A stretch of 20,855 bases of DNA from Actinomycetota bacterium (GTDB lineage: Bacteria; Actinomycetota; Actinomycetes; Nanopelagicales; Nanopelagicaceae): positions 1 to 20,855 of the forward strand of contig WLOR01000008.1 of assembly GCA_009699165.1 (NCBI GenBank), given 5' to 3'. The notes under the pieces are model-generated. The model was not told where the DNA came from and made no database searches. It worked only from the letters and a program-made list of their open reading frames with translations. Below, one piece after another: positions 12,496-20,266 of this stretch; positions within the stretch are counted from its first letter, which is position 1; the number at the start of each line of letters is the position of its first letter. A program made the position numbers and the translations under genes.

Positions 12496-13890
12496 ATGAT
12501 TACACAAACCAATCACAAGGAAACTTTTAGATTCATCCCTACGACTTCAGTAGAGGTTCCACCCGAACGAATCGCCCAGCTTCTTAAAGCTGAATGGGAG
12601 TTATTCACACAACAAACCGGTAAGAGTGCAGAAGAGAGCAGACGCTCCTTCAAATCACTACCTCTAGGTGTGACTTCAAGTTTCCAGCACTGGGATCCAT
12701 ATCCGATTTCGATTGTCAGTGCTAAAGGCGCTTGGATGACCGATGTCGATGGGCGCGAACTCCTTGACCTGTCAATGGGATTTGGCGCAATGCTCGCTGG
12801 TCACCTTAACCCTGTCATTGTTGAAGAAGTTAAAAAAGCTCTTGAGACTGGAACTCTGTTTGTAACCCCATCACCAATTTCAACTGATGCTGCCGAGAGA
12901 ATTTGTCGCCGCTTTGGAATTGATCAAGTGCGATTTACAAATAGTGGAACAGAGTCAACGATGTATGCCGTACGCACTGCGCGTGCTGCAACTGATAAAA
13001 ATGCGATTGTTAAAGTCGAAGGCGGCTATCACGGTAGCTATGATCCTTTTGTAGTTTCAAGCAAGCCTCCATTGGATCAAGTCGGAGATCCAAGTGATCC
13101 AATTGCCCATATCCCTGCAGGGATTGTTCCTGGCGAAATTTATGTAGTGCCATACAACGATGCAGATTCTCTTGAGCGGACTTTTATTAAACATGCTGAT
13201 TCAATCGCCTGTTTAATTCTCGAGCCAGTTCTTGAAAACTTGGGCATTGTTTTGCCAGATGAAGGATATCTAGAGCGCGTTCGCGATCTTTGCGATCAAT
13301 ATAACGTTGTACTCATTTTCGATGAAGTAAAAACAGGCTTAACTGCCGGGCATCAAGGTGCCGCCCAGCGTCTTGGTGTCACACCAGATCTAATTACTTT
13401 AGCTAAGTCAATTGGTGGTGGACTTACTTTGGCCGCTTTTGGTGGCAAAAAGAAGTACATGGATTTTGTGACTAATGGCAAAATGGCTCACTTCGGTACT
13501 TTTAACGGTAATCCTTTAGCGATGGCTGGAGTGCGTGCTGCAGATATCATCTTTACGCAAGAGTCATTAAAAACGGCAGAGGCATTTAACCAGCAGGCAC
13601 TGGATCGAATCGGTGCGATCATTGAGAAATACCAACTTCCAGCACATACGGTCGGTTTTGGTGTCAAAGGCTGCGTAACGTGGTCAACGACGCCTGTTCG
13701 CAACTATCGCGACTACAAAGCTACAGACTTTGCCATTGCTGAACTCTCGTGGCTCTTCTCGCTCAACCGTGGAATCATTACGCCTCCGGGTCTCGATGAG
13801 CAGTGGCTCATATCTCTTGCCCACGGGCAACGTGAAGTTGATATCTTGGTTGAGGATTTCGAGGCGTTAGCTCAGGCGTTGCGCTCTTAA
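12496..13890 (+). CDS. Class III PLP aminotransferase, HemL-like
   Basis: A predicted PLP-dependent enzyme of 464 residues, closest in pattern to the glutamate-1-semialdehyde aminomutase group of class III aminotransferases. Visible motifs: LPLGVTSSFQHWDPYPI at 55-71 (substrate-side loop), FTNSGTESTMYAVRTARA at 147-164 (phosphate-binding GTES), EGGYHGSYD at 175-183, the PLP-contacting VLIFDEVKTG at 272-281, and the Schiff-base lysine Lys304 in ITLAKSIGGGL. The N-terminus is about 50 residues longer than the core, and the acidic HxG-to-GSA features needed to call HemL are not evident, so a transaminase or aminomutase of another substrate is as likely. It has an unusually long upstream region for this window and no Shine-Dalgarno. 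Confidence 0.82.
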   Translation: MITQTNHKETFRFIPTTSVEVPPERIAQLLKAEWELFTQQTGKSAEESRRSFKSLPLGVTSSFQHWDPYPISIVSAKGAWMTDVDGRELLDLSMGFGAMLAGHLNPVIVEEVKKALETGTLFVTPSPISTDAAERICRRFGIDQVRFTNSGTESTMYAVRTARAATDKNAIVKVEGGYHGSYDPFVVSSKPPLDQVGDPSDPIAHIPAGIVPGEIYVVPYNDADSLERTFIKHADSIACLILEPVLENLGIVLPDEGYLERVRDLCDQYNVVLIFDEVKTGLTAGHQGAAQRLGVTPDLITLAKSIGGGLTLAAFGGKKKYMDFVTNGKMAHFGTFNGNPLAMAGVRAADIIFTQESLKTAEAFNQQALDRIGAIIEKYQLPAHTVGFGVKGCVTWSTTPVRNYRDYKATDFAIAELSWLFSLNRGIITPPGLDEQWLISLAHGQREVDILVEDFEALAQALRS

Positions 13891-13928
13891 GGCGGATATA
13901 CCTCAGCACCCCTGTAGAGTACGAACTT

Positions 13929-13946
13929 ATGACTGGTCAAGTCTAA
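13929..13946 (+). other. Possible five-codon upstream ORF
   Basis: ATG ACT GGT CAA GTC TAA encodes MTGQV. A TANNNT hexamer (TAGAGT, 13915-13920) ends 8 nt before its ATG, similar to the leaderless pattern of real genes nearby. It lies 27 nt upstream of the GT4 glycosyltransferase start. It may be chance. Confidence 0.15.
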
Positions 13947-13973
13947 GGACCGTTCTATACATGGGGAGAGGTT

Positions 13974-15296
13974 GTGAAGCGCCTTTCTGCAATCCTCTTT
14001 AGCTTCTGGAGTAAAAAACTCTCTGGATTAATTCTCGCGATTCGATCAACCCGTGTTTTTGACTGGATTGAAAGTAATGAGCGTGTCTACCAACTCTTAA
14101 AATCGATGTATAGGTTTATTCATCGACCGATGAAGACTCTTCCGGAAATGGCTTTCGAGTACAAGTTATTAAAGGCAGTCCCTCAGCGAACTATTTACTG
14201 TGATGTATCTGGAATTTTCGACGTCCCATTTCTGGATGGAACTCGACGGGTCGGTAAATATTTTGCCCAGCATTTACTCGATATGCATGATTCGAATTAC
14301 CGGATTATCCCCGTCAAATGGGATGGAAATACCTATATCGATTATAGAAAGACACAAAAGATCTTTAGATTCTTTGCAGATAGAAGATTTGAATGGAATC
14401 CAAATCCAGATGATTTACTTTTTTTGCAAACAATGGAAGCTGTCACACAAATTGGTCAGTTAAAATTTAAAGAGATCAAAAATAAAGTCAGAGTTGTAAC
14501 CTTTATTCACGACATATTGCCTATTCGTGAACCTAGTTGGTTTACAAAGCGCATGGTTAACACTTTCATTGACAACCTTGATTCCGCTCTTGAAAACTCA
14601 CATCTGCTCGTTGTTAGTTCGAAAGTAGTAGAAGGTGACCTGCTTGCATTGACCTCATCAACTAACTCTCAAAAAGTAATTCCCCAGATAGAACGTGTCA
14701 ATATCGCTTCAGTTGCTCAACGTTTTAGGGTTAAAGAGAGAAGTACTAAGGTCATCTCTTGCGCAGATCCACTAGTTTTCTTGATGATTTCAACTATAGA
14801 GCCGCGAAAAGGTTATGACGAACTTGTAGCCGCGGCAACAAAAGCAATATTGGCAGGTGCAAATATAAAATTCATAATTGTGGGTCGCTTGGGTTGGGTA
14901 TCCGACTCTTTTCGCGCAGAATTTGCGCGCTTTATTCAGGATTTCAGCGACCGAGTTGAGTGGCATGAAAATGCTACAGATGATGAAATCTCCGATTTTG
15001 TTTCAGAGGCAGATATTTTTCTCTCTCCAACACGCGGAGAAGGTTTTGGGATTCCAGTAACAGAGGCGCTCTTGGCTGGGCTTCCATCTCTGGCTCGAGA
15101 CATACCTGTTTATCAAGAACTCTATGGTCATGCCGTCGCACTTTTCGGCAAAGGTATGGATTTTCCAGACTTATATACGGCTTTTATAGAGCCTGAAAAG
15201 CTCCAAGCGGTTGCTACGGATAGATTTACAAAATTCATTCCAAGTGATTCGCTGGATTCATTTAATGCACTCATGGAAGTCTTTCGATCTCAATAA
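13974..15296 (+). CDS. GT4 family glycosyltransferase
   Basis: A predicted cytosolic glycosyltransferase of 440 residues with the GT-B fold. The C-terminal nucleotide-sugar half is clear: STIEPRKGYDELVAAA (273-288), IIVGRLGWVS, DDEISDFVSEADIFLSPTRG (336-355), then EGFGIPVTEALLAGLPSL with the E-x7-E motif (Glu356 and Glu364). The N-terminal 60 residues are basic and amphipathic, suggesting peripheral membrane contact. The start is GTG at 13974, supported by the purine-rich GGGGAGAGG just upstream; the ATG at 13961 is out of frame. This is one of three starts in the window with a Shine-Dalgarno-like sequence. It precedes the FN3/exosortase pair by 66 bp. The sugar and acceptor are unknown; a link to surface glycans or to the exported protein is only suggested by proximity. 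Confidence 0.85.
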   Translation: MKRLSAILFSFWSKKLSGLILAIRSTRVFDWIESNERVYQLLKSMYRFIHRPMKTLPEMAFEYKLLKAVPQRTIYCDVSGIFDVPFLDGTRRVGKYFAQHLLDMHDSNYRIIPVKWDGNTYIDYRKTQKIFRFFADRRFEWNPNPDDLLFLQTMEAVTQIGQLKFKEIKNKVRVVTFIHDILPIREPSWFTKRMVNTFIDNLDSALENSHLLVVSSKVVEGDLLALTSSTNSQKVIPQIERVNIASVAQRFRVKERSTKVISCADPLVFLMISTIEPRKGYDELVAAATKAILAGANIKFIIVGRLGWVSDSFRAEFARFIQDFSDRVEWHENATDDEISDFVSEADIFLSPTRGEGFGIPVTEALLAGLPSLARDIPVYQELYGHAVALFGKGMDFPDLYTAFIEPEKLQAVATDRFTKFIPSDSLDSFNALMEVFRSQ

Positions 15297-15362
15297 CACC
15301 TGGTAAAAGGGATCTCCCGAGTACTCTTTGCCTCAGGAATTGTTTCCAGACATGGGAGAAAT

Positions 15363-16118
15363 ATGCGCAGATTCGTGACTCTTTTTTCGGTTTTAGTCGC
15401 CCTTCAGGTGCCACTAGCAGTTGCCGTTGCAGCAGATGAGCCAATAACTGCGACGTCTTTTGAGATTCCGACACTGCAAACCTGTACATCGCTATCGTCA
15501 CATGCAGTCAGGATTTTGCGAAGCCAGCGACCTTGTCATGTGAACACTGAGGCTCTTGCAATATGGCGAAGTGAGGCATCGGTTGAAGATTTAACCTCTA
15601 AATTCCCCATGGCAACACTGCAGACTTGTGCGGGAAAGAGTTCGACTAACCCAAGCTACTTGTTAATCAAGAGTAGCTGTCAAAAATTTCAAGTTGCAAC
15701 GGCATGGCACAGATGGCTAAGGGCTCCTAGTACGCCAGAGATTAAAAGCGTTGTTGCTCTTAACGAGGTAACGGCGTTAATTACGTTCGATCAGATGAAT
15801 GACAATCCAGATGCGCCTATCGCATTTTTCACTGTAATTAGCCATCCCGATGAAGTGACAACTACTGGTCTGCCTAATGCAAAAGGACAGTATTACGTTA
15901 CGGGATTAAACGAGCAGAAGTCCTATACATTCTCGGTTTCAGCGACCAACGCCGATGGTGTGTCACCACTTTCTGCTGCGAGTGAAGTAGTCACGACACC
16001 AGCAATACCCGTTTTAGTTCCAGCCGGTCCAGGATTAATTTCATTTGTCACAGCAGCTGTTTTACTCTTTGCCTTCTTTATTTACCGGCGATTTAAATCC
16101 GCACTTCATTTAGTCTAG
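15363..16118 (+). CDS. Secreted Cys-repeat/fibronectin type III protein with C-terminal sorting-like tail
   Basis: A predicted exported protein of 251 residues, not assignable to a named family. The signal peptide covers about 1-24 (MRRFVTLFSVLVALQVPLAV, then AVAAD). Two similar Cys units follow: TLQTC at 37-41 with a second Cys at 58, and TLQTC at 85-89 with a second Cys at 106, both spaced 17 apart. A fibronectin type III domain covers about 125-211, ending with the typical YTFSVSATNADGVSPLSAAS. The tail has a Pro/Gly-rich motif (AIPVLVPAGPG, 214-224), a hydrophobic helix (about 225-240) and a basic cluster YRRFK (241-245). That tripartite tail is the layout of exosortase/sortase substrates. 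An exosortase-like gene begins 7 nt after the stop. The ATG has GGGAGA 3 nt upstream. It could alternatively be a simple single-pass anchored protein. Confidence 0.8.
   Translation: MRRFVTLFSVLVALQVPLAVAVAADEPITATSFEIPTLQTCTSLSSHAVRILRSQRPCHVNTEALAIWRSEASVEDLTSKFPMATLQTCAGKSSTNPSYLLIKSSCQKFQVATAWHRWLRAPSTPEIKSVVALNEVTALITFDQMNDNPDAPIAFFTVISHPDEVTTTGLPNAKGQYYVTGLNEQKSYTFSVSATNADGVSPLSAASEVVTTPAIPVLVPAGPGLISFVTAAVLLFAFFIYRRFKSALHLV
15471..15716 (+). repeat. Two Cys-repeat units within the FN3 protein
   Basis: The units start at residues 37 and 85, offset 48. Each begins TLQTC, has a Ser-Ser pair soon after, a hydrophobic core (VRIL or SYLL), a second Cys exactly 17 residues after the first, and a Trp about 10 residues later. 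The DNA is also partly conserved (ACACTGCAAACCTGT against ACACTGCAGACTTGT). This resembles C...vR...C...W repeats seen in other actinobacterial secreted proteins. One disulfide per unit is inferred. Confidence 0.6.
15999..16097 (+). other. Putative C-terminal protein-sorting signal
   Basis: It encodes residues 213-245 of the FN3 protein: Pro-rich AIPVLVPAGPG, then a transmembrane helix, then YRRFK. Motif, helix and basic cluster are arranged as in PEP-CTERM or PGF-CTERM signals, but the motif matches neither. Confidence 0.5.
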
Positions 16119-16125
16119 ATTTTTG

Positions 16126-16659
16126 ATGTTGCGAAAGTTCTGGGATTCACCCTTGCCGGAAATGGCAATCCGTTTTCTCCTTGTTATTCCCCTGATCTAC
16201 TTGACCCACGCCTTTAGTTGGGACTTCTTGCGCACATGGACGACCACATTGATTGTTCAAGGTGATGCTTTTCTTGGCACACACCTTGCTGTGCTCTCAC
16301 CCACATCATTTGCAGTTGGTGATCATTACTTTAAAGTTGTTATTTCTTGTACCTCTATCGACGTCCTAATTGGTTCGCTGCCGCTTTTGCTTGACCGCAG
16401 GAAAACAGTTTTTGGATTCATTCAATTCTTTCTTTTCTATGCCTTGGTGGCCGAAGTTTTGAATATTCTGCGGTTAGTACTTGGCTTCTTCGCCTTTGAC
16501 CATGGGCTCTCATGGAGGTTTGCCCATGAGATTCCAAGTGGGGTATTTCTCTTTCTCTGGTTCATCTGGTTACTGCACTATCGAGGCTGGTCATCTCCTT
16601 CCCTCTTATTCAAAGACCAACACAAAGGGGAGTTAAAAGAAGAAAAGCCCCCGGTGTGA
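16126..16659 (+). CDS. Exosortase/archaeosortase-like membrane protein
   Basis: A very small multi-pass membrane protein (177 residues from the ATG). It has helices at about 14-30, 66-90, 95-122 and 136-151. The three expected catalytic positions of exosortases can be placed: Cys75 in KVVISCTSIDVLIGSLPLLL, Arg116 in VLNILRLVLGFF (matching the N-x-x-R motif) and His134 in FAHEIPSGVFLFLWF (matching H-x3/4-G). The glycine usually two residues after the Cys is serine here. The gene starts 7 nt after the stop of the FN3 protein, which has a matching C-terminal tail, so a dedicated enzyme-substrate pair is inferred. A TTG at 16123 directly before the ATG is a possible start. No Shine-Dalgarno is visible, consistent with coupling. 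The last 27 residues are charged and cytoplasmic. It is shorter than typical exosortases, so assignment rests on motifs and context. Confidence 0.68.
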   Translation: MLRKFWDSPLPEMAIRFLLVIPLIYLTHAFSWDFLRTWTTTLIVQGDAFLGTHLAVLSPTSFAVGDHYFKVVISCTSIDVLIGSLPLLLDRRKTVFGFIQFFLFYALVAEVLNILRLVLGFFAFDHGLSWRFAHEIPSGVFLFLWFIWLLHYRGWSSPSLLFKDQHKGELKEEKPPV

Positions 16660-16675
16660 AAGGCACCGAGAGCTT
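16633..16675 (-). terminator. Rho-independent terminator of tRNA-Arg
   Basis: On the minus strand a 12-position stem (10 pairs) formed by 16675-16664 and 16656-16645, with a 7-nt loop, is followed by TTCTTCTTTT. It lies 7 nt beyond the tRNA 3' end and includes the stop codon of the convergent exosortase-like gene. In the plus direction no T-tract follows. Confidence 0.75.
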
Positions 16676-16681
16676 AACTTG

Positions 16682-16754
16682 TGCGCGCGAAGGGATTCGA
16701 ACCCCTAACCTTCTGATCCGTAGTCAGATGCTCTATCCGTTGAGCTACGCGCGC
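16682..16754 (-). tRNA. tRNA-Arg (anticodon ACG)
   Basis: A 73-nt cloverleaf: 7-bp acceptor GCGCGCG/CGCGCGC, D-arm GCTC/GAGC, anticodon stem TCTGA/TCAGA around loop CTACGGA (anticodon ACG, read as ICG after deamination), T-arm AGGGG/CCCTT with loop TTCGAAT, and discriminator A. The 3' CCA is not encoded. It serves CGN arginine codons. Confidence 0.97.
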
Positions 16755-16765
16755 TTATTTAGTTT

Positions 16766-16771
16766 TGTATA
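16766..16771 (-). promoter_or_regulatory. Putative -10 element of tRNA-Arg
   Basis: TATACA reads toward the tRNA and ends 11 nt before its 5' end, leaving a short trimmed leader. No good -35 is visible. The remaining sequence 16772-16852 shows nothing else I can identify. Confidence 0.35.
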
Positions 16772-16852
16772 GCCTGCGCATCTTACCTTCTTTTCATGGC
16801 CATCCAAAATGCCCATAATGCAGCCTATTAGTTGCCTTTTGCAGTGAATTAA

Positions 16853-16892
16853 TAAAACACAAAGGGCGCCGGAATCAACCGACGCCCTTTGT
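16853..16892 (-). terminator. Rho-independent terminator of the 5'-nucleotidase gene
   Basis: A 10-bp stem ACAAAGGGCG/CGCCCTTTGT (16859-16868 with 16883-16892), one mismatch, then CGG/CCG and the loop AATCAA. On the minus strand it is followed by GTTTTA. It begins 14 nt after the nucleotidase stop at 16907. Confidence 0.8.
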
Positions 16893-16906
16893 TATTTACT
16901 GCTTAA

Positions 16907-18922
16907 TTAGCCAACTTTTTTCACACGCCCATCGAGGGCAGGAATCTGGGTGACTTTGCCGGCTGCCATATCAGCCTTTAATGCATCTACAAACACATCA
17001 AGTAGTGCGCCATAAACTTTCGCCTTTGAAGGTGAGAACACATCTACATATCCATCGCCACCATAAATGATGTAGTCAAGAGTTGTCAGTGTGTATTCGG
17101 TAGCATCCTTTGCGATCTCAGTTCCATCATTCTTTGTAACCGAGACGATGCGACTTCCAAGTGGCTTTGACGAATCGAATGTGAACTTCAATCCAGATAC
17201 CTGTGGGAAGCGTCCATCTGCTGGATAGTTACCACCAACGCCATTTTCAAGTGCCTTCCAAAGGTTTGCACCTGTCACAACTGTTGTTGCTACCTGGTTA
17301 CCGAATGGATAAACAGTTAGAGCATCTCCGAGCGTCACATCGAGTGGGCCAGTACCTGTACGAACAAGAGCTGTATTGGCTGGGATGTAGTTCTTAGCTG
17401 GGAATGTATCGCGAATTCCACCGCCGTTAGAGATTGCAAAATCTGTCTTGTACTTAGCACGTAGTAAGTCTGCAATGTAATCACCCATTGGGTTTTCACC
17501 TGAACGCTCCACTGCAGGAGACCCACCGCGTGGGAACTGAGCAGATACTTGACCAATTTTGACGTCAAGTTTTCCAGTTAACTGATCTTTGTACTTCTTA
17601 ACCAATGCCGCACCTGCTGCATCTGGAGTCGTCACTGTACTCACAACACCTGTATTAATAGTTGCAGCTGCAGCTTTTAAAACATGCTGCAGTGATGAGC
17701 CGATTACTTTTCCATTCTTTAAGCAAACTTGACTGCGTGTGTACTCAACTCCTGCGTTACGTACTTCGCCAAGAAGTGCTGGTGCGCTCAATCGACCAGT
17801 TGGGATCAAGGTCGAGAATGTCTGGTGGCTATGGCCACCATAAATAACTGCAGCCCCTTTTATCGCTGAAGCAAGGCTGTTATATAGGCCTTTTGCAGTT
17901 CCATCAGAGTTCTCAGTCCACCCTTGGTGAATGAGCGCAATGACGATGTCTGCACCGGCAGCTTTTGCGTCAACGATTGCCTTATTCATTCCGACAACAC
18001 CTGGATCGATTTCGATTGTCTTCTTAGCGCCATTTGCATCCACATAATCGAGGTTTCCAGGGAAAACCTGCTCGATTGTCTCAGGAGTGTTTGCTCCAAC
18101 GATTCCAACTTTGATTCCACCACGATCAACAATTGTGAAGGATTTTGCAGCCTTGTCACCTGACTTCAAGGCAGCTAATGACTCATCACCGTAGTTTGAA
18201 ACAACCCACTGGAAATCTGAGGCACCGATAACTTTTTGCACATGAGCAAGGCTTCGGTCGTGTTCGTGGTTACCAAAAGTCGATGCATCAACCTTCATAA
18301 GGTTCATAGATTCGATTGTTGGCAACTCTTCAAACTCAGTTGAAATCGGTGGTGCTGCACCAATGTTGTCGCCAGATGAGACAGTGATTGTTGCTGCGTT
18401 AGCCTTGCGATCTGCCGCAAAGTTGCTAACTAATAATGGTGTTCCAAATGAGCTGCCTGTTTCGATTGCACCGTGTAAATCACTGAACTGCAGGATCTGT
18501 AATGCTTTATACGAAGGTGACGCCGAGTTTGCTATTTGAGCTGCGGTGTAAGTTTGTGTAGATACCCCCGGCTTAGAAAAGCCATAAGCATTTACCGCTT
18601 GAACAAATGGTGTTCCACCTGGCTGACCTACGACTACAGGCATTGTTACACCTGAGCGTCGAGATGCTGGGACGAAAATTGGGCAAGAGCCCGCGCCAGC
18701 CGAAACGACATATCCTGTAACTGCAGGGGTCACATCAGTCGCTGGTGTCCAGTTAACAACAATTCCATGAGAGCTAATGTGCGATGTAACGCCAGTAGGT
18801 GCAGCAGGCAAGGAGTAGCCCTGAGCCTGTGCAGTAGGTATTAGAAGTGAGACTAATACTGCGGTGGCTGTGGCGAGTGCGCCAAAGCCTTGAATTCTGC
18901 GGAGATTGGAAGTCTGTTTCAT
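16907..18922 (-). CDS. Secreted 5'-nucleotidase / metallophosphoesterase with N-terminal FN3 domain
   Basis: A 671-residue exported enzyme predicted to release phosphate and nucleosides from extracellular nucleotides. The signal peptide is about 1-34 (hydrophobic core ALATATAVLVSLLIPTAQA). A fibronectin type III-like domain covers about 38-126 (SLPAAPTGVTSHISSHGIVV through AVNAYGFSKPG). The calcineurin-like metallophosphoesterase core follows: FSDLHG (146-151) with Asp148 and His150, SSGDNIG, GNHEHD (217-222), ALIHQGW and GGHSHQ. The C-terminal 5'-nucleotidase domain contains NPMGDYIADLL, AISNGGGIRDTF, VYPFGNQVATT and LDYIIYGGDGY. Family members commonly use AMP or UDP-sugars; the substrate here is not fixed. 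There is no C-terminal anchor or sorting tail, unlike the nearby FN3 protein, so it is probably secreted free or loosely attached. TAGATT lies 5 nt before the ATG. Confidence 0.92.
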   Translation of the reverse strand: MKQTSNLRRIQGFGALATATAVLVSLLIPTAQAQGYSLPAAPTGVTSHISSHGIVVNWTPATDVTPAVTGYVVSAGAGSCPIFVPASRRSGVTMPVVVGQPGGTPFVQAVNAYGFSKPGVSTQTYTAAQIANSASPSYKALQILQFSDLHGAIETGSSFGTPLLVSNFAADRKANAATITVSSGDNIGAAPPISTEFEELPTIESMNLMKVDASTFGNHEHDRSLAHVQKVIGASDFQWVVSNYGDESLAALKSGDKAAKSFTIVDRGGIKVGIVGANTPETIEQVFPGNLDYVDANGAKKTIEIDPGVVGMNKAIVDAKAAGADIVIALIHQGWTENSDGTAKGLYNSLASAIKGAAVIYGGHSHQTFSTLIPTGRLSAPALLGEVRNAGVEYTRSQVCLKNGKVIGSSLQHVLKAAAATINTGVVSTVTTPDAAGAALVKKYKDQLTGKLDVKIGQVSAQFPRGGSPAVERSGENPMGDYIADLLRAKYKTDFAISNGGGIRDTFPAKNYIPANTALVRTGTGPLDVTLGDALTVYPFGNQVATTVVTGANLWKALENGVGGNYPADGRFPQVSGLKFTFDSSKPLGSRIVSVTKNDGTEIAKDATEYTLTTLDYIIYGGDGYVDVFSPSKAKVYGALLDVFVDALKADMAAGKVTQIPALDGRVKKVG

Positions 18923-18927
18923 GGTCG

Positions 18928-18933
18928 AATCTA
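18928..18933 (-). promoter_or_regulatory. Putative -10 element for the 5'-nucleotidase gene
   Basis: TAGATT reads toward the nucleotidase gene and ends 5 nt before its ATG, with no Shine-Dalgarno. A leaderless transcript is inferred. Confidence 0.45.
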
Positions 18934-18954
18934 AGCAGAAAATAAGACTGCTGC

Positions 18955-18971
18955 GTTACCCGAAAGGTAAC
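18955..18971 (-). terminator. Weak hairpin after fprA
   Basis: A perfect 6-bp stem GTTACC/GGTAAC with a 5-nt loop lies 30 nt past the fprA stop. On the minus strand it is followed by mixed sequence with only a short T-run (TTATTTTC) some 10 nt later. It may terminate fprA transcripts or be incidental. Confidence 0.3.
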
Positions 18972-19000
18972 TACAAGTTTGCTTTAAGGTGAATAAATAC

Positions 19001-20266
19001 TCAAAGACCAGCCATTTTTAAAAGCTCTTCCCGGTTAACACTCTTAACTCGAGGCTTTCCCAACGCTTCACCGGCAGCGATTTCAGCCTCATTGATGCGT
19101 TGCCAGGCGGCTTGATCGACAACTCTTTCCACCGAAATTACATCTGAGATATCACCAACATTTTTAGGCTCTACGAGATCACCGACTAATAGCTCGATAA
19201 CGGCGGCGGCATCTGATTTATTGGTTCCGATAACACCCGAAGGTCCACGTTTTGCCCACCCCACAACGTATAGACCGTCGGCGACACGACCATCTTCGTT
19301 TACTACCTTTCCATTTTCATATGGAACACCATCGATACTCGCGGCGTGGTAACCGATCGCGGTGATGACTAATCCACATTTAATAGTCACATCACCGCTT
19401 GGGGTTGAGTAAACAATCGCCTCCACACGCTCACTACCAACAATCTCTTTTGGAGTGTGCTGAAAAAGAAAGTGCATTGTTCGCTCGTGTGTGGTTTGTT
19501 GATTGTCTGCAATTAACGCCATTGCATCTAGATTGCTCTTCACATCTTTTTCGGGTGCATCTCCCGCACGAACAAGTGCTGCATCAATATCTTCGCAATG
19601 TATCACAACATTAGTGTGTTCAAGTTTTGATAATTCACGTAGTTCGGGCGATGTAAAAGCTGCGTGCTCTGGGCCGCGGCGAGCGCTCAAATAAACATCA
19701 CGCACTTTGCTTTTCTTGAGGGCTGCGATTGCATGATCGGCTGTATCAGTCGTATCAAGTTCTACTGGGTCAAGGGCTAACATTCTTGCAACATCCATAG
19801 CAACATTGCCAGCTCCAATAACAACTGCCGTATCGCAATCAAGAGGAACATTTAGCTCTGCAAAATCAGGATGTGCGTTATACCAAGGTACAAAATCGGC
19901 CGCGGAAAGCGATCCAGCTAATTCTTCCCCTGGAATCCCAAGTTTCTTACCTAAAGATGAGCCAGTGGCGATTACGACAGCGTCATACTTTTCCCTAAGC
20001 TGTGAAATGGATATTTCGCTACCAATTTCAACGTTTCCAAATAAGCGAAAGTTTGGATCTCCAGCTATCTTCTCAAATACCTTGGATACTGTCTTAATTT
20101 TTGGGTGATCTGGGGCAACACCGCTTCTCACAAGACCCCACGGGGTCGGAAGTCTTTCAATCATGTCTATTGCAAATGTTCGCTCGTCGTTTTGTAGATT
20201 ATGAAGGGCCTGAGCGGCAAAATATCCCGCTGGTCCCGCACCAATAATTGCTATTTTGTAGATCAC
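19001..20266 (-). CDS. fprA: Ferredoxin-NADP+ reductase, FprA (adrenodoxin reductase) type
   Basis: A 421-residue cytosolic flavoprotein moving electrons between NADPH and ferredoxin, resembling mycobacterial FprA and adrenodoxin reductase. The N-terminal FAD site is YKIAIIGAGPAGYFAAQAL (3-21). The family-specific RLPTPWGLVRSGVAPDHPKI follows, then VVIATGSSLGKKLGIPGEEL. The NADP dinucleotide fold is TAVVIGAGNVAMDVARMLA, with DVYLSARRGPEHAAFT after it. The C-terminal GWAKRGPSGVIGTNKSDA covers the flavin. It is somewhat shorter than mycobacterial FprA, and no fused ferredoxin domain is present. The start is GTG at 20266, with GGGAG 7 nt upstream. An Rrf2 regulator lies upstream on the same strand, 181 bp away, but separate transcription is likely. 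Partner ferredoxin is not in the window. Confidence 0.92.
   Translation of the reverse strand: MIYKIAIIGAGPAGYFAAQALHNLQNDERTFAIDMIERLPTPWGLVRSGVAPDHPKIKTVSKVFEKIAGDPNFRLFGNVEIGSEISISQLREKYDAVVIATGSSLGKKLGIPGEELAGSLSAADFVPWYNAHPDFAELNVPLDCDTAVVIGAGNVAMDVARMLALDPVELDTTDTADHAIAALKKSKVRDVYLSARRGPEHAAFTSPELRELSKLEHTNVVIHCEDIDAALVRAGDAPEKDVKSNLDAMALIADNQQTTHERTMHFLFQHTPKEIVGSERVEAIVYSTPSGDVTIKCGLVITAIGYHAASIDGVPYENGKVVNEDGRVADGLYVVGWAKRGPSGVIGTNKSDAAAVIELLVGDLVEPKNVGDISDVISVERVVDQAAWQRINEAEIAAGEALGKPRVKSVNREELLKMAGL

Follow-up and report, generated by a model that had tools for sequence, protein, structure and literature searches.

Two adjacent genes of a small-genome freshwater actinobacterium probably constitute a dedicated sorting pair, in which a small exosortase-family enzyme is encoded directly behind its own candidate substrate. 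The pair lies in a stretch of 20,855 nucleotides (forward strand of contig WLOR01000008.1), which is referred to as the window throughout this paper. A dedicated enzyme-substrate pair had already been proposed in a first-pass annotation of this DNA, and the proposal is supported by the adjacency of the two genes at all five loci that could be read, by the invariant residues of the enzyme, and by orthologues that exceed the cut-off of the exosortase/archaeosortase family model. Here, the evidence is laid out from the gene pair itself to its relatives, its genomic surroundings and its distribution.

Features of the Gene Pair

The first gene (positions 15363 to 16118, + strand, ATG start) encodes the putative dedicated substrate, a secreted Cys/FN3 protein of 251 aa. 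Its N-terminal hydrophobic segment is followed by a four-cysteine region (residues 41-106, positions 15483 to 15680, +) with cysteines at residues 41, 58, 89, and 106, and by an FN3 domain (residues 129-209, positions 15747 to 15989, +) that matches PF00041 with 28.1 bits against a cut-off of 25 (E 2.3e-6). The C-terminus consists of AIPVLVPAGPG, a hydrophobic helix and YRRFK. It contains the putative recognition motif P-A-G-P-G (residues 220-224, positions 16020 to 16034, +) and the helix ending in Y-R-R (residues 225-243, positions 16035 to 16091, +, with YRR at residues 241-243), after which only a short basic end remains. The structure model of this protein has a mean pLDDT of 56, and the cysteine region, where pLDDT is below 50, has no confident fold.

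The second gene (positions 16126 to 16659, +) encodes a membrane protein of 177 aa. Its ATG at 16126 sits 7 nt past the substrate stop codon, and a TTG at 16123 is an alternative start. Counted from the ATG, the protein contains C75, N113, R116, H134, and G139; the codon of the putative nucleophile Cys75 lies at positions 16348 to 16350, those of N113-x-x-R116 at 16462 to 16473, and that of His134 at 16525 to 16527, all on the + strand. The first-pass description of both reading frames, of these residues, of the tail and of the 7-nt gap was exact in every detail checked. In comparison with the nearest relative (L025), pN and pS were 0.22 and 0.72 for the substrate gene and 0.23 and 0.82 for the enzyme gene, with synonymous sites near saturation, and both genes look to be under purifying selection.

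The Membrane Protein as a Member of the Exosortase/Archaeosortase Superfamily

In the exosortase/archaeosortase superfamily, a cysteine, an arginine and a histidine have characteristic roles. The window membrane protein is assigned to this superfamily through its relatives, because its orthologues exceed the cut-off of TIGR04178 and because no aligned row departs from the putative catalytic residues. The window protein itself scored 20.0 bits against TIGR04178, below the cut-off of 23 (E 6.4e-4; the match spans positions 1-90 of the 97 in the model), and it was absent from the genome-wide TIGR04178 search of its own genome (G000) at E ≤ 0.1. Nine relatives were scanned with the same model. The cut-off was passed by P0002 (27.8 bits) and P0004 (25.3), which are orthologues with 61-68% identity to the window enzyme, and by the divergent P0016 (23.9) and L022 (24.4); it was missed by L023 (22.4) and P0017 (19.1), and TIGR04178 was not among the listed matches of P0020, P0021, or P0022. 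The earlier suggestion of an exosortase-like enzyme is thus upheld by the orthologues, though the window copy stays below the threshold. The remaining TIGR04178 matches in the order (L003-L016, 14 loci) had E-values of 0.006 or worse and were set aside; the frame of the best of them, L003, resembles an iron permease by eye.

Residues C75, N113, R116, H134, and G139 were found in 16/16 rows of the enzyme alignment, which includes near-duplicates (P0001 nearly duplicates the window protein, L022 pairs with P0018, and L023 with P0017). The exosortase-like order of Cys75, N-x-x-Arg116, and His134 pointed out in the first-pass annotation is therefore a conserved feature. P0021 and P0022 are divergent relatives, 31-32% identical to the window enzyme, in which the invariant residues are present. 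A search of 5.8 billion proteins returned six homologues of the enzyme and eight of the substrate, and a profile search, in which up to 7998 candidates were scored, brought the enzyme homologues to at least 14, eight of them new. An active-site cysteine is described for ArtA in the accessible part of one report (PMC11980579).

The AlphaFold model of the enzyme (mean pLDDT 80) comprises five helices, with three short strands (residues 55-70) just before C75. In this model, C75 is the first residue of helix 75-88, R116 falls within the C-terminal half of helix 95-125, and H134 is near the start of helix 130-152; the loop 89-95 carries a charge of +2. From the helix positions alone, it is plausible that the three residues gather at one outer membrane face. 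Comparison of the model with solved structures in the PDB gave no convincing match. Among the proteins scanned, none matched XrtY, XrtX, XrtW, XrtF, ArtD, ArtE, or ArtH above the subfamily cut-off; the best such score was 23.7 bits for P0017 against XrtY, where the cut-off is 160, and the others were far below theirs.

The sub-threshold score of the window protein and the missing PDB match are what would be expected of a membrane protein unrelated to exosortases, whose residues agree with theirs by chance. We regard such a coincidence as extremely improbable, since the orthologues lie over a curated cut-off, conservation extends to all 16 rows, and a neighbor with a tripartite tail accompanies the enzyme at each of the five readable loci.

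The Tail of the Adjacent Secreted Protein

At every locus with a readable upstream gene (5/5), the enzyme is directly preceded by a secreted protein that ends in [AI]GP[GT], a helix and a basic segment. These loci are the window, L025 (WLMW01000011.1, G262:C3), L002/L017 (G181; CAINRW010000102.1, L026), L022 (G252), and L023 (G240), of which the last two come from another genus, so that two genera and three divergent enzyme groups are represented. The motifs are PAGPG in the window and in L025, PIGPT in L002/L017, IAGPT in L023, and SAGPT in L022. Substrate and enzyme genes are separated by at most 7 nt or overlap, and the signal peptides of the five upstream proteins were judged by hydropathy and by eye. 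In the substrate alignment, PAGPG and YRR are invariant in 9/9 rows, one of which (P0007) is almost identical to the window substrate. For two further couples, P0002 with P0008 and P0004 with P0011, the longest contig is equal within each couple (7214 and 10290, respectively), which suggests that enzyme and substrate are co-located there as well.

The strongest single argument for the pair is that a different ectodomain bears a tail of this type next to an enzyme of this type. The likeness between the window substrate and that of L002 is confined to the tail (13/38 identical, E 0.10 as a single comparison), and no FN3 match was obtained for the L002 substrate. The two FN3-type groups (the window group and L022/L023) are not independent in their ectodomains, because profile comparison aligns these over columns 85-213 with a probability of 96.9; the alignment ends before the tail.

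The motif [AI]GP[GT] occurred eight times in 119,388 residues, or about 0.001 times per 15-residue stretch, in ORFs of at least 200 aa on 60 contigs sampled from the own genome. Given this background, its position just before the C-terminal helix in three groups exceeds what chance would give. Tail profiles built from two groups missed the held-out third (ranks 30, 1627, 1600, and 1633 of 2117 ORFs), and consequently the likeness of the tails rests on a short motif and on physical character; after this hold-out failure, tail HMMs were not taken to prove that the tails are homologous. The window substrate matched no NCBIfam family at E ≤ 10, and none of the NCBIfam models of C-terminal sorting signals was matched by ten further substrates. 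P0008 and P0009 showed a weak match, outside the tail, to NF045522, a MYXO-CTERM-anchored protein family. A recognition motif other than PEP or PGF had been anticipated, and the putative motif can now be written as [AI]GP[GT], for which no NCBIfam tail model was matched.

Occurrence of the Tail With and Without the Enzyme

Relatives of the ectodomain provide a natural control. When the substrate alignment was searched against 135 genomes of the genus at E ≤ 1e-10, nine genomes were matched. Two of them, G000 and G262, contain a full-length substrate with its tail together with the enzyme. For the seven other ectodomain-bearing genomes, some of which are incomplete (67-97% or 99%), no enzyme was reported by the family-wide search, and the seven closed ORFs read from these enzyme-less genomes have neither a C-terminal helix nor a tail. 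In L166-L170, different sequence without a C-terminal helix comes after the matched region; Lcl_C was matched in 4/5 cases (above the cut-off in one) and He_PIG in 2/5, and these are secreted Cys/FN3 proteins ending in RAF. In L171 and L172, only the FN3 part was matched, again with no C-terminal helix. L173, for which no closed ORF was listed, and one more match on the same genome (G309) stand outside this count. In the ORFs that are readable, the tail accompanies the enzyme. FN3 orthologues that lose the tail while the enzyme persists had been named beforehand as the pattern that speaks against a pair; what was found is a tail in 9/9 substrate rows, and tail-less relatives only where the enzyme was undetected.

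Other Candidate Substrates in the Same Genome

A true exosortase-family enzyme may sort several proteins, the adjacent one being merely one of its substrates. In favor of this reading, exosortases are often multi-target enzymes, with a median of eight PEP-CTERM proteins per genome according to the accessible part of PMC1569441, and the own genome is 83% complete. A direct scan covered 479,816 bases, which is 37% of the own genome, and took in 667 ORFs of 90 aa or more. Eight of these ORFs have a hydrophobic N-terminus and a single basic C-terminal anchor, and GP[GT] is found only in that of the window (0/7 in the others). The G181 substrate escaped the anchor filter but was caught by a simpler motif filter. 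A 61-residue ORF of L147 with AGPG, picked up by the motif filter, was rejected as too short for the architecture.

Over the whole own genome, the tail profile gave one match at E ≤ 10. In 296 genomes, the five that carry the enzyme gave E-values no worse than 2.8e-17, followed by a match at 6.9e-4; this search is blind to divergent tails, and it is partly circular because the five enzyme-bearing genomes supplied its training rows. Second-tier matches occurred in 166/296 genomes at E ≤ 1, the best beyond the five being the 6.9e-4 match, and none of 25 second-tier loci (L036-L060) ends in GP[GT], helix and basic segment. Four of them (L038, L051, L052, and L057) encode 62-99 residues, with a single helix and an end of the YRR type but no GP[GT]. 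A helix and YRR alone are thus unspecific.

Adjacency at 5/5 loci, the one own-genome match and the lack of GP[GT] in the other anchored ORFs of the sample make an enzyme with several targets unlikely, though the part of the genome read directly and the blindness of the profile leave some room for it. The arrangement of one enzyme with one substrate, judged from these searches, is likely to be exclusive.

Genomic Context and the Upstream Glycosyltransferase

The pair is located in a variable interval between an aminotransferase gene and a ferredoxin reductase gene (positions 13890-19001 in the window). Both flanking genes were present in 15/15 relatives tested, and the interval between them ranged from about 1.7 to 26.5 kb in the 13 relatives that have both on one contig, with content and length varying across L093-L103. 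A tRNA-Arg (acg) gene, detected by ARAGORN at positions 16681 to 16754 on the - strand of the window, is a conserved border of the variable slot and was found in 11/11 stretches fetched from this interval. In near relatives, the slot from the aminotransferase to the tRNA-Arg is occupied by a glutamate-type dehydrogenase gene and one for a pyroglutamyl peptidase (by Pfam for L093, by eye for L094 and L102). In the window, it holds the FN3 protein, the enzyme and, upstream of both, a GT4-type glycosyltransferase of 440 aa (positions 13974 to 15296, +; Pfam Glycos_transf_1, E 6.6e-17). The slot of G262 contains the same three genes and three further ones, namely, a methyltransferase, a TOD1/MUCI70-like glycosyltransferase and an FkbM methyltransferase, which lie after the pair (L025:4061-6819) and before the tRNA-Arg. 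In G101, the same slot is occupied by a gene for a 3452-residue putative surface protein (L097:2364-12722, -). The G181 pair is found on the opposite side of the same ferredoxin reductase gene, with genes for a polysaccharide pyruvyl transferase and a GT2 enzyme downstream of it. A gene resembling those of peptidyl-prolyl isomerases precedes the pairs of the other genus (L022 and L023), and the pair of L023 has a rhomboid-like gene after it (both by eye).

The GT4 gene was detected in 2/111 drawn genomes of the genus (E ≤ 1e-50), both of which have the pair, and in both it is upstream of the pair. It was not found at L017 and L027, while L022 is too short to tell. Because it was detected only in these two of the genomes drawn and was not found at L017 and L027, the GT4 gene is considered part of this clade's cassette and not of the system in general. 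The earlier idea that it belongs to the same surface locus accordingly holds for the window and G262 and fails at L017 and L027. Against defense models, the GT4 protein gave a weak AbiA match only (E 0.0041).

These neighbors bear on whether an enzyme of exosortase ancestry could do another job, for example in surface polysaccharide assembly together with GT4, the FN3 protein being an ordinary membrane-anchored surface protein. Such a role would fit the GT4 gene that immediately precedes the pair in the window and in G262 and the polysaccharide pyruvyl transferase and GT2 genes downstream of the G181 pair. We consider it highly unlikely, because the GT4 gene was not found at L017 and L027, the enzyme comes after a GP[GT]-tailed protein at 5/5 loci, and none of the putative catalytic residues varies.

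Distribution

The enzyme was found in 5/296 genomes of the family. Six genomes were matched at E ≤ 0.01 before G285 was dropped, whose match (E 0.008, in a frame with stops) was taken as noise. In drawn samples of 394 genomes of the class and 396 of the phylum, it was detected in the own genome only. No relative of the enzyme was found in the viral contig, phage and plasmid collections, and a phage or plasmid origin was rejected on this basis. Since the distribution is sporadic, it suggests that cassettes of an enzyme and its own substrate are gained and lost.

Proposed Mechanism and Significance

For the dedicated pair, the following sequence of events is proposed. The substrate would be exported and then held in the membrane by its C-terminal helix, where Cys75, Arg116, and His134 of the enzyme would meet it at the outer membrane face. 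Attack by Cys75 would lead to a cut at or near A-G-P-G, and the new C-terminus would be passed to a lipid or glycan acceptor, or be released. The Cys/FN3 ectodomain would thereby be displayed. In the clade of the window, GT4 might act by modifying the substrate or by synthesizing the acceptor.

On a wider and more tentative level, which we hold to be quite possible rather than probable, small-genome freshwater actinobacteria would possess exchangeable surface cassettes, each with a minimal exosortase and one dedicated [AI]GP[GT]-tagged substrate. Together with glycan genes, these cassettes would be exchanged at variable chromosomal slots and would remodel the cell surface, possibly in response to phages or grazers. 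The pair thus suggests a possible way for these cells to vary their surface. It also offers a proposed exosortase-type recognition motif with no matching NCBIfam model in bacteria with very small genomes, and its unusually small enzyme, which has just one candidate substrate next to it, would open exosortase chemistry to a clean two-gene test. No paper joining exosortase with Planktophila or Nanopelagic- was found in a literature search that mostly left subscription papers aside.

Comparison With Known Systems

Dedicated pairs of an enzyme and its target are in themselves a known idea, as stated in the accessible part of PMC3237569. That report describes rhombosortase and GlyGly-CTERM, where the enzyme is near a single target and the arrangement is called a dedicated system. 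The window pair would share this arrangement, whereas rhombosortase is a rhomboid serine protease, an unrelated enzyme, and its motif is GlyGly. With exosortase (EpsH) and PEP-CTERM, the putative pair has in common the superfamily and the architecture of the tail (PMC1569441 and PMC12188702, as far as their accessible parts go), but the motif is not PEP. Archaeosortase A, for which cleavage and lipid anchoring in Haloferax are described in the accessible parts of PMC7157517 and PMC11980579, and its PGF-CTERM substrates resemble the present system in the motif, hydrophobic helix and basic tail and in the cysteine enzyme; in contrast, the present system has another motif, is bacterial, and has its candidate substrate directly beside the enzyme. 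A further close likeness is to the dedicated single-target pairs of TIGR04178, with which the present system shares the family signature (via the orthologues), the Cys, N-x-x-Arg, and His residues, the multipass topology and the adjacent protein with a tripartite tail. It differs from them in the [AI]GP[GT] motif, in an enzyme of only 156-179 aa, in having no named-subfamily match above the cut-off among the proteins scanned, and in its occurrence in small-genome actinobacteria.
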